From the NCBI RefSeq assembly GCF_006385175.1, contig NZ_VFIY01000018.1, forward strand, positions 310,001-374,000: 64,000 nucleotides of DNA. Reading direction: 5' to 3'. Source of the DNA: Emcibacter nanhaiensis. Lineage in GTDB: Bacteria; Pseudomonadota; Alphaproteobacteria; Sphingomonadales; Emcibacteraceae. Shown piece by piece: positions 7,612 to 12,604 of this stretch. Position numbers and translations under genes: made by a program. Every line of letters begins with the position of its first letter. Within the stretch, counting starts at the first letter, position 1. The notes under the pieces were generated by a model. That model was not told the DNA's origin and searched no databases. It saw nothing but the letters and a program-made list of their open reading frames with translations.

Positions 7612-8823
7612 ATGACCATTGGCGTGGGCGGTTCGACCGCCGAACTGGAGCTGAAAAAGCTCGCCGACATGACCGGGGGCGTCTCGCCCATTTCCGAAAA
7701 GGAATATCGCGCGCGGATCGCAAAGGCGCAAAGCCTGATGAAGGAACTGGGCCTTGAGGCGGTTTACCTCAACGCCGGCACCAATATGACCTATTTCACC
7801 GGCACGCCCTGGTACGCCAGTGAGCGCATGGTCGGCGTCATCCTGCCGGCCGAGGGCGCGCCGGAATATATCGCCCCGGTGTTTGAGATCGGCACCCTCC
7901 GGGACTTCATGACCATCGAGGGAAAAGTCAACGGCTGGGAAGAGCATGAAAGCCCCTACGCCCTGTTCGGCGAGGTGTTGCAGCGCATGGGCATCAGCGA
8001 CGGCGCCATCGGCCTCGATGAAGGATCGAGCTTTTTCATTTTCGACGGCCTGCGCGCCGAGGCCCCAACCTATGACTATGTCAACGCCAAAGCGGTTACC
8101 GCCGCCTGCCGCATGCACAAAAGCGCGGCGGAAATCGCCCTGATGCAACGAGCCAAAGAGATGACCATGGAAGTGCACAAGGCGGCGGCCCGCATCCTGC
8201 GCCCCGGCATTTCCACCCTGGAAGTGACCGAGTTCATCGAGCGGGCCCACAAGAAGGTGGGCGCCAAGGGCTCCAGTTTCTGCATCGTCCTGTTCGGTGA
8301 AGCCACCGCCTATCCGCACGGGGTCAAGGACCCGCAATACCTCAAGGAAGGCGACATGGTGCTGATCGACACCGGCTGCCTGCTGCACGGCTATAACTCC
8401 GACATCACCCGCACCTATGTCTATGGCGAACCCACTGCCCGGCAGCGGGAAGTCTGGCAGCATGAAAAAGACGCCCAGCTCGCCGCCTTCGAAGCGGCTC
8501 AACTTGGCACCCCCTGCGGCGAGGTGGATGTGGCCGCGCGACGGTCGCTGGAAGCCAACGGTTACGGCCCCGATTACAAGGCGCCGGGCCTGGTGCACCG
8601 CACCGGTCACGGCATCGGCCTCGATATCCATGAATGGCCCTATCTGGTGAAGAGCGACCAGACCCTGCTTGCCCCGGGCATGTGCTTTTCCAACGAACCG
8701 ATGATTTCCATCCCCGGCGAGTTCGGGGTGCGGCTCGAGGATCATTTCTACATGACCGAAGACGGCCCGCGCTGGTTCACCCAGCCGAGCCCGAGCATCG
8801 ACAATCCGTTCGGGAATAACTAA
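7612..8823 (+). CDS. M24-family metallopeptidase (Xaa-Pro peptidase type)
   Basis: A 403-residue pita-bread metallopeptidase. The N-terminal creatinase-like domain (about residues 30-165) is followed by the M24 catalytic domain. The five metal ligands are all visible: Asp in VLIDTGC, Asp in NSDITRTY, His in HRTGHGIGLDIHEWP, Glu in FSNEPMIS and Glu in VRLEDHFYM. It probably cleaves the bond before or after proline in small peptides in the cytoplasm; members of this subgroup also include ectoine hydrolase-like enzymes, so the substrate is uncertain. The start follows AAGAAGGA. It is monocistronic and divergent from the flavoprotein gene. Confidence 0.88.
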   Translation: MTIGVGGSTAELELKKLADMTGGVSPISEKEYRARIAKAQSLMKELGLEAVYLNAGTNMTYFTGTPWYASERMVGVILPAEGAPEYIAPVFEIGTLRDFMTIEGKVNGWEEHESPYALFGEVLQRMGISDGAIGLDEGSSFFIFDGLRAEAPTYDYVNAKAVTAACRMHKSAAEIALMQRAKEMTMEVHKAAARILRPGISTLEVTEFIERAHKKVGAKGSSFCIVLFGEATAYPHGVKDPQYLKEGDMVLIDTGCLLHGYNSDITRTYVYGEPTARQREVWQHEKDAQLAAFEAAQLGTPCGEVDVAARRSLEANGYGPDYKAPGLVHRTGHGIGLDIHEWPYLVKSDQTLLAPGMCFSNEPMISIPGEFGVRLEDHFYMTEDGPRWFTQPSPSIDNPFGNN

Positions 8824-8830
8824 CCCCCCT

Positions 8831-8918
8831 CGTCACCCCCGCGAAAGCGGGGGTCCATGCCTGACACGTATAGGAAACGGAAACAATTGTCTGGATTCCC
8901 GCTTTCGCGGGAATGACG
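8831..8918. repeat. Inverted pair of palindromic intergenic repeats
   Basis: Two related units face each other. The first (8831-8857) reads CGTCACCCCCGCGAAAGCGG onward and forms a hairpin CCCCCGC-GAAA-GCGGGGG; the second (8892-8918) is its near inverse, TGGATTCCCGCTTTCGCGGG followed by AATGACG. The 34 bases between them are unrelated. This is the form of the dispersed palindromic elements common in proteobacterial intergenic regions. It lies between convergent genes and may also act as a transcript end, although there is no clear T-run. Confidence 0.75.
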
Positions 8919-8944
8919 TCCATGCAGTAATGGGATAAAGTGCC

Positions 8945-9262
8945 TCAGGCCTTCAGGCGCAGGCCGATCTTGTCGGCAAATTCCTTGAGCTTGAGGTCGT
9001 CACCGATCAGCAGCTGCAGGCCATATTGCGGACGGTTGCACCAGGCGACACGTCCGCCGCACTGGCCGAGCTCGGCAATGTCGAGCAGAAACTGCTGGCC
9101 CATCTCCAGCTCCCGGTCCAGCACCATCAGCGCCCCGGCCGTGGACACATTGATCAGCTCGCAGGGATAACTGATCCCGTCAACGGTCAGCAGCGCGCGC
9201 CAGACCACATCCAGGCGGCTGTCGCTTCTCTTGTCTTCATTACTCATGGCTTCGGCAGACAT
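8945..9262 (-). CDS. PilZ-domain protein (putative c-di-GMP receptor)
   Basis: A 105-residue single PilZ domain. The N-terminal DKRSDSRLDVVW supplies an arginine pair of the RxxxR kind, and NVSTAGALMV matches the second D/N-x-S-x-x-G element of c-di-GMP binders; RVAWCNRPQYGLQLL is the usual closing strand region. It likely senses cyclic di-GMP and acts by protein contact. The first arginine motif is shorter than the classical form, so nucleotide binding is an inference. A second in-frame ATG five codons in is an alternative start. It is convergent with the peptidase and divergent from the PEP-CTERM pair. Confidence 0.85.
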   Translation of the reverse strand: MSAEAMSNEDKRSDSRLDVVWRALLTVDGISYPCELINVSTAGALMVLDRELEMGQQFLLDIAELGQCGGRVAWCNRPQYGLQLLIGDDLKLKEFADKIGLRLKA

Positions 9263-9378
9263 CTCTACTACTCTTGAATGTTTATATCTTTAGTTCCGAA
9301 TGTATCGGAAGTCCGCGAAAAAGGCAAAGCCGGATCGCCGGACAATCGGCAAAAAATTTGCGGCAGTCGCCGTAAACA

Positions 9379-9476
9379 CTGTAAAGAATCCCTTACAGGT
9401 CGGTTTCTCACGTAACCGTTTGTAATAATTACAAATCTCACGTTAACCATAAGTAAGCTGTAAAGAATCCCTTACA
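9379..9476 (+). promoter_or_regulatory. Palindromic repeats upstream of a sigma54 promoter (putative activator sites)
   Basis: The 19-base sequence CTGTAAAGAATCCCTTACA occurs twice, at 9379-9397 and 9458-9476, starts 79 bases apart. Each copy is itself an inverted repeat with TGTAA / TTACA arms. Between them, 9419-9435 is a perfect 17-base palindrome, TTTGTAATAATTACAAA, with the same half-site. Their place 60-160 bases upstream of a -24/-12 promoter is that of enhancer sites for an NtrC-type activator. PrsR-like activators are known to control PEP-CTERM genes with sigma54 in other bacteria; that this is the regulator here is inference. Confidence 0.7.
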
Positions 9477-9533
9477 CTCCGGAATATTAGGTTATTCACA
9501 CCAATCGCGGTTTCGCTCGTTTGTTACCCGCCC

Positions 9534-9547
9534 GGCACAATATTTGC
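9534..9547 (+). promoter_or_regulatory. Sigma54 (-24/-12) promoter
   Basis: The sequence CCGGCACAATATTTGCAT contains GGCAC and TTGC with exactly ten bases between the invariant GG (9534-9535) and GC (9546-9547), matching the RpoN consensus in all but the T before GG. Transcription would begin near 9559, about 38 bases before the start codon of the first HAF-repeat gene. Confidence 0.72.
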
Positions 9548-9596
9548 ATACAGCAGTAAGTTATATTGTTTTGGTCTATTTTATTGGGGGAAGATC

Positions 9597-10742
9597 ATGC
9601 TCCGTAAATATGCCGCCGTGGCCGCACTGGCCATCGCCTTGACACCCGCCGCCGCCCTGGCCGTACCAACCTACTCGATCCAGGTCCTGGAGGGAATGGA
9701 AGGCTACGACACGAGAACAACAGCGATAAACGATAGCGGCCAGGTGGTTGGCGCAATGGTTTCACAGGAAGCTTCAAACCTCCCTGTAAGATCCATCCTC
9801 TGGAATGACGGCAATCTGGTTGACCTGGCGGGAAGCGACTACTTCATTCATGTTGCAGTAGACATTAATAATTCCGGACAGATTATTGGCGGCTATTATG
9901 ATTCAGAGGGTGATCCATATATTAAGTCATATTTCTGGAACGGGTCACTGAACAATATAACCCTTCCGGAGGTTCCGACACCCAGCTGGCTTCCCTACGG
10001 TGTGAACAACCACGGTCAGGTTGTACTGGCACCAAATGGCGTCTTTGCCAATAAAATCCACCTGTGGTCCCAGGCGGACGGTCTTACTCCAATTGATATG
10101 CCAGAAGGTACGCCTGATGTTTATCCAACAAGCATCAATGATGCAGGCCAAATCGTAGGATGGTTCGAAAACCAGGATGGCGACCTGCAGGCCTTTTTCA
10201 GAGACACTGACGGTTCTTTCCACGAATTGCCGATTACCGGCCTGCGTTATTATCTGGGAACAGTGGAGATAAATGAAAACGGTCTGGTCAGCGGCACCGT
10301 CGCCGAGGACTATATCGACAACGAATTTATTACGACCGGCTTTAACTGGTCACTGGAAGACGGCCTCACCATTCTGGACAAGGGCTCCTTTGAAAGCAGT
10401 AGCGCCCATCGCAGCAACAATGACCAGGTTGTCGGTATGATTGGAAATTCAGAAGAAAACACCTTCGGTACCATCTGGGATAATGAGGAACTTTTCCTTC
10501 TGGATAATCTCGTCAGCCTGGAAGATCCCCTGTTCGGCCTCCTCTCCATCACCCGGGCCAGTGGCGTCAACAATCTTGGCCAGATTGCGGCTGAAGGCAT
10601 CCTGCTGGAAACGGGAGAACAGATCGGACTGTTACTGACACCGAACGGTATCTATATCGCGCCCGTCCCGGCGCCGGGTGCGCTTGGCCTGCTGATCTGT
10701 GGCGCGGGGCTGCTGATCTATCGCCGTCGGAAACAAATTTAA
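9597..10742 (+). CDS. Secreted HAF-repeat protein with PEP-CTERM-type sorting tail
   Basis: A 381-residue exported protein. A signal peptide covers about residues 1-22, ending AAALA. The body holds about seven HAF-type repeats, each with an N-x-x-G-Q-V/I core: AINDSGQVVGAM, DINNSGQIIGGYY, GVNNHGQVVLA, SINDAGQIVGWF, EINENGLVSGTV and GVNNLGQIAAEG among them. The C-terminus has the exosortase signal arrangement: VPAPG, a hydrophobic helix, then RRRKQI. Such proteins are cut and released or anchored by an exosortase, usually with exopolysaccharide or biofilm export. GGGGGAAGATC precedes the ATG. It is followed after 11-23 bases by a paralog with the same tail. Exact role unknown; no exosortase gene is in the window. 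Confidence 0.85.
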   Translation: MLRKYAAVAALAIALTPAAALAVPTYSIQVLEGMEGYDTRTTAINDSGQVVGAMVSQEASNLPVRSILWNDGNLVDLAGSDYFIHVAVDINNSGQIIGGYYDSEGDPYIKSYFWNGSLNNITLPEVPTPSWLPYGVNNHGQVVLAPNGVFANKIHLWSQADGLTPIDMPEGTPDVYPTSINDAGQIVGWFENQDGDLQAFFRDTDGSFHELPITGLRYYLGTVEINENGLVSGTVAEDYIDNEFITTGFNWSLEDGLTILDKGSFESSSAHRSNNDQVVGMIGNSEENTFGTIWDNEELFLLDNLVSLEDPLFGLLSITRASGVNNLGQIAAEGILLETGEQIGLLLTPNGIYIAPVPAPGALGLLICGAGLLIYRRRKQI

Positions 10743-10765
10743 TCAACAAACAAATGTGTGTGGAT

Positions 10766-11947
10766 ATGAAAATGTTTAAAAAATATTTTGCTCTTTTGAC
10801 CTTGGTCGCGGGTCTTGGTCCGGTATCGGCCTATGCAGCACCGCTGTATAATGTGCAGTGGCTTGATGCGGAAAACCTCGGCAACAGCTGGGGAGACAGC
10901 ATTAACGACCAAGGTGCCGTCTCCGGATATGCCAATGTGGGGCCTGGCACTAAAACGGCCGCCTATTGGGATGCGGATGGCACACGCCATGATATTACCT
11001 CCCAGGGCGATGAGCTAAATTATGCTCGCCTTATCAATAATAATAATCAGATAGTTGGCTTTTCCAGATACACAAATGAGGATAACAGTATTTCCAGCGT
11101 GCCTTTTTACTGGGATAGCGAAAGTGGCGTTATCAACCTGCCTCAGTTCGCTCAGGACCGTTATAGTGTGAGGAATCTTGGTCCAAACGGTGAAATAGTT
11201 GTTTACGATTATGATACCGAAAGACCAGGTGTTTGGACAAAAGAAAGCGGCTTCACATATTTGCCAGATCCGGAAGATACGACAGATTATTTCTATCCTA
11301 TTGGGTTTGCGGACAATGGGGAGATGATTTTTCAGCACTGGTATAAAAATGACGAAGGATTCGATGTCCTTCAATATCTGATCTGGAACTCAGACACAGG
11401 ATACCGGGACAGTGGCTTTTCCGACAGTTTCGGAGATTACTACTTAATCCCTGATGATCTAACTGACGACGGTACAATTTTCGGCAGTACTGAAGACTGG
11501 TCAGAAGACTATCCCCGCCCCCAGAATCTGTTTCGCTGGACCGAGGAAGGAGAACTCGTAATCCTTCCGGTCGATGGGGTTGATGTCGCTGCAATTTCTG
11601 AAGCCAATAACAACGGTCAGGCCCTGGCCTATTCCTACAACTGGACTGAAGACTATGACGCGGTTGATTGGACCTACTATCTTTGGGACAATGACGAGCT
11701 TTTTGAGATCAGCACCCTGATCGACCCCAACGATCCCTATTTTGGATTGTTCACCCCTGATGGCGGCCTTGACCTCAACAACCTGGGTCAGATGACCGGT
11801 CAGGCCTATAACCCCGACACCGGTAAATATTCCGCCTTCATTCTGAACCCAATCCTTGCGGATCGTGTTTCGGTCCCCGCACCGGGCGCGCTTGGCCTGC
11901 TGATCTGTGGCGCGGGGCTGCTGCTCTATCGCCGCAAGCGGTCATAA
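10766..11947 (+). CDS. Second secreted HAF-repeat/PEP-CTERM-type protein (tandem paralog)
   Basis: About 393 residues, paralogous to the preceding gene. The signal peptide runs to about residue 24 (PVSAYA). HAF-like repeats are more degenerate: SINDQGAVSGYA, LINNNNQIVGFS, LTDDGTIFGS, EANNNGQALAYS and DLNNLGQMTGQAY. The tail VPAPGALGLLICGAGLLLYR is nearly identical to that of its neighbour, including at the DNA level, so the two tails have been kept alike by recent duplication or conversion while the bodies diverged. The first in-frame ATG (10754) has no ribosome site; I start at 10766, where the peptide begins MKMFKKYF. It is probably cotranscribed from the sigma54 promoter and ends at a clear terminator. 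Confidence 0.84.
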   Translation: MKMFKKYFALLTLVAGLGPVSAYAAPLYNVQWLDAENLGNSWGDSINDQGAVSGYANVGPGTKTAAYWDADGTRHDITSQGDELNYARLINNNNQIVGFSRYTNEDNSISSVPFYWDSESGVINLPQFAQDRYSVRNLGPNGEIVVYDYDTERPGVWTKESGFTYLPDPEDTTDYFYPIGFADNGEMIFQHWYKNDEGFDVLQYLIWNSDTGYRDSGFSDSFGDYYLIPDDLTDDGTIFGSTEDWSEDYPRPQNLFRWTEEGELVILPVDGVDVAAISEANNNGQALAYSYNWTEDYDAVDWTYYLWDNDELFEISTLIDPNDPYFGLFTPDGGLDLNNLGQMTGQAYNPDTGKYSAFILNPILADRVSVPAPGALGLLICGAGLLLYRRKRS

Positions 11948-11962
11948 CCGCGGATCATCCCC

Positions 11963-11997
11963 AACAAAAAAGGCGCCGATTGGCGCCTTTTCTTTTG
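11963..11997 (+). terminator. Terminator after the HAF-repeat pair
   Basis: AAAAAA, a perfect 6-bp stem GGCGCC-GATT-GGCGCC, then TTTTCTTTT. It separates the pair from the convergent TetR gene and is likely to work in both directions. Confidence 0.88.
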
Positions 11998-12019
11998 CCT
12001 GCACGCTTCCCTTAAATGA

Positions 12020-12604
12020 TCAGGCCTCAATTCCCTTGGCCACCAGGGTCAGGATCTGTTCGGTCAGCGCCTTCATGTCCAGCGCCCCGTCCTCCCGATA
12101 CCAGGCGGTGATGCCGTTCAGGGCATCAAACAGCAGGATGGCGTTGATTACCGGATGGGCGTCCCGGCGGATCGAGCCGTCCTCGACCCCGCGGGCGATA
12201 ATGGCGCGGACCCGGCTTTCGATACCGCGGTGCATTTTCAGGCTGGCGTCCCGGGCGGCGTCATTCTCCCGCTGGCCGCGGTGGCGCACATGGCAGCGGA
12301 TGATATCGTCATTCAGCAGGGTGATATAATCCTTGATGAAACCATAAAGCTGCGCATAACCGGTGCCGCCCTTTTCCATCACCTTATCAAGCAGGCCATT
12401 GATCCTCTCGCTGGCCACTTCCTCGCATTTGACCAGGATGTCTTCCTTGTTCTTGATGTAATAATAGAGGGTCGGCTTGGTGACATTATGCATTTTGGCA
12501 ATGTCGTCCAGCGAGGTTTTGTAATATCCCTTTTCCATAAATGCCTTGGCCGCGTGGCGCAGGATGGCATCCAGTTTCTGCTGGCGTTTTTCTTCGCGTT
12601 TCAT
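12020..12604 (-). CDS. TetR-family transcriptional regulator
   Basis: A 194-residue TetR protein. The DNA-binding domain covers about residues 8-55, with AAKAFMEKGYYKTSLDDIA and the recognition half VTKPTLYYYIKNKEDIL. The C-terminal part has the fold length of acyl-CoA or fatty-acid responsive regulators. It is divergent from a thiolase gene across 181 bases that contain a palindrome, so it probably represses that gene and itself. The ligand cannot be read from sequence. Confidence 0.9.
   Translation of the reverse strand: MKREEKRQQKLDAILRHAAKAFMEKGYYKTSLDDIAKMHNVTKPTLYYYIKNKEDILVKCEEVASERINGLLDKVMEKGGTGYAQLYGFIKDYITLLNDDIIRCHVRHRGQRENDAARDASLKMHRGIESRVRAIIARGVEDGSIRRDAHPVINAILLFDALNGITAWYREDGALDMKALTEQILTLVAKGIEA

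Follow-up and report, generated by a model that had tools for sequence, protein, structure and literature searches.

A HAF-repeat gene and its tandem relative behind a putative PrsR/sigma54 promoter in Emcibacter nanhaiensis

The stretch analysed, hereafter the window, comprises 64,000 nucleotides (nt) of the Emcibacter nanhaiensis genome (contig NZ_VFIY01000018.1, positions 310,001 to 374,000), and our subject is a pair of tandem genes within it, HAF1 and HAF2, together with the 334-nt intergenic region (9263-9596) that precedes HAF1. An earlier note, made from the letters alone, had described here a sigma54-type promoter, palindromic sites upstream of it and two genes for proteins with PEP-CTERM-type tails, and the observation as a whole is confirmed: the promoter, two copies of a 19-base site, the tandem genes and a terminator at their end are all present (Table 1). 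The site, CTGTAAAGAATCCCTTACA, occurs at 9379-9397 and again at 9458-9476, the distal copy continuing through G9398. It is an imperfect palindrome, symmetric at 14 of the 18 positions of TGTAAAGAATCCCTTACA by manual count, with its TTTACA end on the minus strand; the two copies lie 79 nt apart in a single orientation and represent a near-symmetric form, TGTAAGGGATTCTTTACAG, of the box discussed below. From the GC of the promoter to the ATG at 9597 there are 49 nt.

Table 1. Features of the HAF1-HAF2 locus (positions in the window).
Feature	Position	Strand	Remarks
Distal PrsR-box-like site (motif 1)	9379-9398	-	CTGTAAAGAATCCCTTACAG; minus is the best-scoring strand
Proximal PrsR-box-like site	9458-9476	-	Same 19 nt as the distal copy; 56 nt 5' of the sigma54 element
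Palindrome TTTGTAATAATTACAAA	9419-9435		Contains TGTAA/TTACA, box spacing absent; role doubtful
sigma54 -24/-12 promoter CGGCACAATATTTGCA (GG-N10-GC)	9533-9548	+	Score 19.0
HAF1	9597-10742	+	381 amino acids (aa); signal peptide, predicted HAF-repeat beta-propeller, PEP-CTERM-type tail VPAPGALGLLICGAGLLIYRRRKQI
HAF2	10766-11947	+	Second gene of the presumed operon; tail of the same type as HAF1, repeats diverged
Intrinsic terminator ending the presumed operon	11968-11991	+	Stem of 10 pairs, 6 G-C; strong

The intergenic region was shuffled 1000 times with dinucleotide composition preserved. No shuffle contained an exact repeat of 19 nt or more (the longest was 12), and none contained three TGTAA-N3-8-TTACA sites. 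A perfect palindrome of at least 17 nt arose in 11 of the 1000, and the 17-base palindrome is thus only weakly above chance. It had been counted earlier as a site of the same type as the two repeats, a view that has to be given up: its half-sites are 3 nt apart, as against 7-8 in the boxes, and at least three other sites in the promoter region outrank it as boxes, so that it scores at most 7.5 bits. A weak terminator-like hairpin of 5 pairs (9401-9418, plus strand) occupies the interval between the distal box and this palindrome.

A six-frame search of the genome (3.96 Mb in 19 contigs) with the PEP-CTERM model TIGR02595 yielded 21 genes over its cut-off, and 500 nt upstream of each were taken and scored within 250 nt. 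A GG-N10-GC score of at least 17.5 was found in 17 of the 21 regions and in 37 of 2100 shuffles; at a threshold of 19, the corresponding counts were 15 of 21 and 3 of 2100. Every one of the 17 promoters is accompanied by a 19-base box whose end lies 50-95 nt 5' of the -24 element, which supports the proposal of a sigma54 promoter served by upstream activator sites. The discriminating motif is the asymmetric NTGTCGGAATTCTTTACAG (20.1 bits). Its model took as seed a consensus picked out by eye in a set of promoters that included the HAF promoter; the latter was held out of training, however, and the HAF copies deviate from the seed in its TGTCGG half. Trained on the other 16 promoters, the model gave 16.9 bits for each HAF copy, against a shuffle mean of -0.2; none of 200 shuffles of the region reached that value. 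Leave-one-out models were likewise compared with 200 shuffles each, for which p=0.005 is the floor, and 15 of the 17 boxes attained it. At C10, C4:365635 and C4:646261 (contig, or contig and position), the best-scoring copy is not the promoter-proximal one; at C4:365635, the best copy is 182 nt from the promoter and another, of 20.0 bits, is 61 nt from it.

The regulon motif put forward in the earlier note, a TGTAA/TTACA half-site, must accordingly be corrected to NTGTCGGAATTCTTTACAG: TGTAA-N6-8-TTACA has nine sites in the genome and eight in the reversed control, and only four of the nine have a PEP-CTERM gene next to them, the window accounting for two of the four. Unseeded palindromic expectation maximization also arrived at TGTAA..TTACA-like consensi. 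A further TGTAA..TTACA site of this genome (G000:C6:134881-135018) has a sigma54 site some 105 nt away and the gene for another NtrC-type regulator less than 2 kb away, and perhaps belongs to a different sigma54 circuit.

Box and promoter were also combined into a single pattern, TTACA-N50-80-GGCAY-N6-TGCW, which has 13 matches in the genome and none in the reversed control. All 13 precede a PEP-CTERM-type gene, and 12 of the 17 promoters are recovered, that of HAF1 through its proximal box. Since these promoters served to design the pattern, only its exclusiveness and the one new match are independent evidence. The new match (C18:566528; 566528-566613) precedes a 214-aa frame (L121, 1616-2260) with the tail STPEIASLMLIGLASVVVGTRLRKKA, a PEP-CTERM-like tail that TIGR02595 had missed, bringing the total known to 22 genes. 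The broader TGGCAY-N6-TGCW gave 46 matches in the genome and 12 in the control, an excess to be expected if sigma54 serves other genes too.

The proteins that such a regulon needs were looked for, as the earlier note had advised for prsK/prsR, rpoN and exosortase genes, and all were found. One of 27 matches to the PrsR model (TIGR02915) exceeds the cut-off, at 711 bits; PrsK (TIGR02916; 698 bits, over the cut-off) adjoins it, and there are two PrsT homologues over the cut-off of TIGR02917, at 672 and 568 bits. On contig C14, PrsR is flanked by PrsK and a PrsT, the second PrsT is about 3.7 kb beyond PrsK, and two glycosyltransferases of the XrtA system stand beside the prs genes. This second PrsT, the 568-bit homologue (L019, 3331-6201, minus strand), adjoins a ThiF/nitroreductase-like fusion. 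The single exosortase is exosortase A (TIGR03109; 303.7 bits, cut-off 208) and carries an EpsI domain; its gene, xrtA, has as neighbour the gene for an XrtA-associated protein of the FemAB family, and the genome also encodes an outer-membrane component of the system. RpoN is present in a single copy (448 bits). The HAF genes are far from both the prs and the xrt genes. Thus, other PEP-CTERM genes do carry the box, and an exosortase and PrsR are both encoded, which is what the earlier note had expected to see were its proposal sound.

HAF1 matches TIGR02913, the HAF model, in three stretches with a total of 50 bits, well past the cut-off of 22.65. The HAF2 open reading frame runs from 10754 to 11947 (397 aa), the position of its signal peptide suggesting a start at 10766; against TIGR02913 it reaches 15.5 bits, below the cut-off, and the genome search gave no match to it either. 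HAF2 is homologous to HAF1 (31% identity, E 3e-38), and by sequence it is best regarded as a diverged relative and not a HAF member by the curated cut-off. Against TIGR02595 (cut-off 16), HAF1 scores 18.6 bits as a whole protein and 22.1 in the six-frame search, and HAF2 scores 15.5 and 20.7. Pfam PF07589 gives HAF1 12.4, short of its cut-off of 20.7, and does not list HAF2. The tail motif in both is VPAPG rather than VPEP, and the HAF2 tail is nearly identical to that of HAF1.

A model of HAF1 was built with AlphaFold2 from 28 aligned HAF proteins (predicted local distance difference test 87, predicted template modelling score 0.84). It has 27 strands within residues 26-349 and two terminal helices, of which the N-terminal one fits the signal peptide and the C-terminal one the PEP-CTERM span. 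The fold matches listed are chiefly beta-propellers, among them CylK at Z 27.8 and integrin alpha and virginiamycin B lyase at about Z 22. The prediction for HAF1 is accordingly a beta-propeller, the strand count suggesting roughly seven blades. Among sequences of solved structures, no relatives of the HAF alignment were found at E 0.01. Because unrelated families share this fold, no enzyme function is claimed for the HAF proteins.

On the strength of the sequence itself, the conserved motifs, the gene content of the genome and the fold prediction, HAF1 and HAF2 very probably form a two-gene operon of the PEP-CTERM/exosortase A regulon, driven by PrsR and sigma54, whose products would be exported, cleaved by the exosortase and left as beta-propellers of the surface or matrix. 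PrsK would phosphorylate PrsR, which would bind the two boxes, approximately 170 and 90 nt 5' of the presumed transcription start, and loop to RpoN holoenzyme at the -24/-12 element, so opening the promoter; HAF1 and HAF2 would then be co-transcribed up to the terminator. Both proteins would be exported by Sec, exosortase A would recognise and cleave the C-terminal VPAPG-helix-RRR tail, and the HAF repeats would fold into the propeller, displayed on the cell surface or in the exopolysaccharide matrix.

Several observations weigh against this account. The binding of PrsR to the boxes is something we infer from sequence. Four of the 21 PEP-CTERM genes have no good promoter; two of these are second genes of presumed operons (HAF2 and C5:386366), C15:254461 has a promoter with a degenerate -12 (TGGCACGAAAATTACC) together with a TGTAAGAAATCCTGACA box site, and at C19:4378 neither box nor promoter was found. 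Two of the 17 boxes are weak (C4:482376, p=0.020; C14:224404, p=0.080), and five of the 17 promoters escape the combined pattern. HAF2 scores only marginally as a PEP-CTERM protein, and the PEP-CTERM model is itself short: when E values up to 10 are admitted, 12 of the 14 control genomes have matches, and in two genomes these exceed the cut-off. At the locus itself, the boxes are near-symmetric and point the other way from those of most promoters, and C takes the place of T as the first base of the -24 element. Among family relatives, the HAF gene of G010 has a 25.6-bit box and no clear -24/-12 element, and that of G003, which follows another open reading frame, has neither box nor promoter.

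The irregular boxes could mean that the promoter is indeed a sigma54 one, but that another NtrC-type activator or a second regulator reads the symmetric, reversed sites, tying the HAF operon to a different signal. The PrsR model gives ten other NtrC-type matches of more than 200 bits in the genome, all below its cut-off, and the HAF boxes depart from the consensus in their distal half. Their arrangement also differs. In 6 of the 17 promoters, an inverted second box (score over 3) is found 20-21 nt, or two helical turns, further upstream; the mean opposite-strand score is -17.1 at a distance of 20 and -19.2 at 21, compared with -29.9 +/- 3.5 over distances of 10-99. (The box model for this spacing analysis, and for the scans of HAF loci and relatives below, was trained on all 17 promoters, HAF included.) The HAF promoter lacks the inverted box and has instead its widely spaced, similarly oriented pair. 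However, the held-out model recognises both HAF copies, and near-symmetric variants also precede PEP-CTERM genes on C14, on C17 and at C4:482376; a different activator is, in our judgment, distinctly improbable. A related near-symmetric box also stands before the HAF gene of family relative G018. A milder form of the idea would keep the HAF operon within the PrsR regulon as a branch with wiring of its own, in which the arrangement of the boxes confers another threshold or admits a second regulator. This we rate as unlikely but a little less so; if true, beta-propeller matrix proteins would be switched on apart from other PEP-CTERM proteins.

It is very unlikely that HAF2 is transcribed from a promoter of its own instead of by read-through. 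A sigma70 scan of the plus strand did return sites at 9859 and 9875 inside HAF1 and at 11234 and 11261 inside HAF2, and six matches were counted over the two strands, where shuffles gave 3.3; none of the four, however, directly precedes HAF2. No sigma54 site of at least 17.5 lies before it, the best GG-N10-GC scoring 15.0, and no box with one mismatch or fewer is listed there. The terminator scan, which found seven sites like that after HAF2 in the region compared with 2.6 in shuffles, lists none in the 11-23 nt gap between the genes, and the PEP-CTERM pair C5:387102/386366 shows the same arrangement. That boxes and promoter arose by chance in AT-rich intergenic DNA has a negligible probability and is already refuted for the box pair plus promoter by the shuffles and the exclusiveness of the combined pattern, even though the GG-N10-GC element alone is weak evidence (allowing one mismatch, TGGCAYN5TTGC is matched 9 times in the window, 12.85 being expected), as is the 17-base palindrome.

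The PrsR/sigma54 operon that we favour is a new example of a known system, and the case for this is well supported. In the parts of Haft et al. (2006; PMC1569441) used here, motif 1 is 17 nt long, ends in TTTACA and is sometimes repeated; it is separated by 62.8 +/- 10.6 nt (range 32-92) from the sigma54 motif 2 (-24 GG/-12 GC), which in turn is 71 +/- 38.5 nt (range 23-221) from the start codon. The motifs precede 99 of 167 proteobacterial PEP-CTERM genes, and PrsK, PrsR and PrsT are named there. The HAF promoter shares the order of a repeated motif 1 with TTTACA end followed by motif 2, its spacer and its distance to the ATG are within those ranges, and the genome likewise holds PrsR, PrsK, PrsT and an EpsH-type exosortase; the comparison of motif 1 is with the text of that paper and not with its published logo. 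The differences from the parts used are the near-symmetric, reversed boxes duplicated 79 nt apart and the HAF-repeat pair as cargo. In Aquincola tertiaricarbonis RN12, according to the portion of PMC9850573 drawn on, the pepA start was mapped behind a -24/-12 element (TGGCAC/CTGCTT), transcription is RpoN1-dependent and an enhancer is predicted upstream. The promoter type, the predicted upstream enhancer and a PEP-CTERM product are common to both; pepA, which takes part in floc formation, adjoins prsT, unlike the HAF operon with its putative surface or matrix role. The role of PrsK-PrsR in Zoogloea is summarised in PMC9012009, as far as the excerpt used extends. The mechanism is known in outline, none of it is new, and the one modest novelty lies in an operon of predicted HAF beta-propellers whose two boxes are arranged in another way. 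The open-access literature searched yielded, among the papers listed, none on HAF-repeat proteins under such names, on Emcibacter and exosortase, or on PEP-CTERM with alphaproteobacteria and sigma54.

The combination had been called unusual for an alphaproteobacterium. Rhodospirillum rubrum is an alphaproteobacterium. It is listed in a table of PMC1569441, within the part used, and we found the box-promoter pattern in 54 of 60 genomes (this one included), with 311 matches against 71 in the reversed control; matches were counted without gene assignment, and the roughly fourfold excess is an overall one, being absent from some single genomes. That half of the claim thus fails, and the other half holds, in that HAF cargo behind the box is uncommon and hardly seen outside the family. 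Searching 196 genomes of the order for HAF gave matches in 31, many of them to the tail only; G001, G003, G018 and the window genes match by construction, being rows of the query alignment. A scan of 80 of 177 HAF relatives from many phyla demanded exact GG and GC within a reach of 400 nt, and some contigs were shorter, so its counts are lower bounds: a box-promoter pair was seen in two of the 80 loci, L122 (the G001 gene) and the weak L125. L122 and L126 belong to the window's family, and outside it, at least one of 78 loci, many not proteobacterial, has a pair (L125; promoter 17.0, box 9.8 bits). L126 was scored as pairless and is the same gene as L106, where a box is accompanied by a degenerate -24. 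The HAF proteins of Nitrosospira, Massilia, Nitrosomonas and others resemble those described here in their repeats and, often, a PEP-CTERM-like tail, and it is in this upstream signature that loci outside the family differ. Upstream regions of relatives' HAF genes were also read directly, leaving aside rows L126, L107, L208 and L125, whose frames were not the intended HAF genes, and the HAF genes of G008. In addition to G003 and G010, this covered G001, with box and promoter; G018, with a box and the promoter-like TAGCATGAATCTTGCA, judged by eye, which has AG for GG; and G084, from another family, with neither box nor promoter.

On the other side of the intergenic region, a PilZ-domain gene (8945-9262, minus strand) diverges from the HAF operon. 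Between it and a peptidase-like gene lies a repetitive extragenic palindromic (REP)-like element (8829-8920; CCCCCGCGAAAGCGGGGG ... TTCCCGCTTTCGCGGGAATGA), the second half of which has one match within the window. No Rfam element exceeds its gathering score within 8700-12200.

The earlier interpretation is, in sum, partly supported: its core was right, and its motif definition, third palindrome and alphaproteobacterial rarity were wrong. What the locus illustrates is that one genome uses the box-plus-sigma54 signature of 2006 before most of its PEP-CTERM genes, and that this signature can reveal substrates missed by the C-terminal hidden Markov model, one in this case. It would also place HAF-repeat beta-propellers under the PrsR regulon, which is elsewhere tied to floc formation, and that link offers a testable guess at the role of the widespread and uncharacterised HAF proteins.

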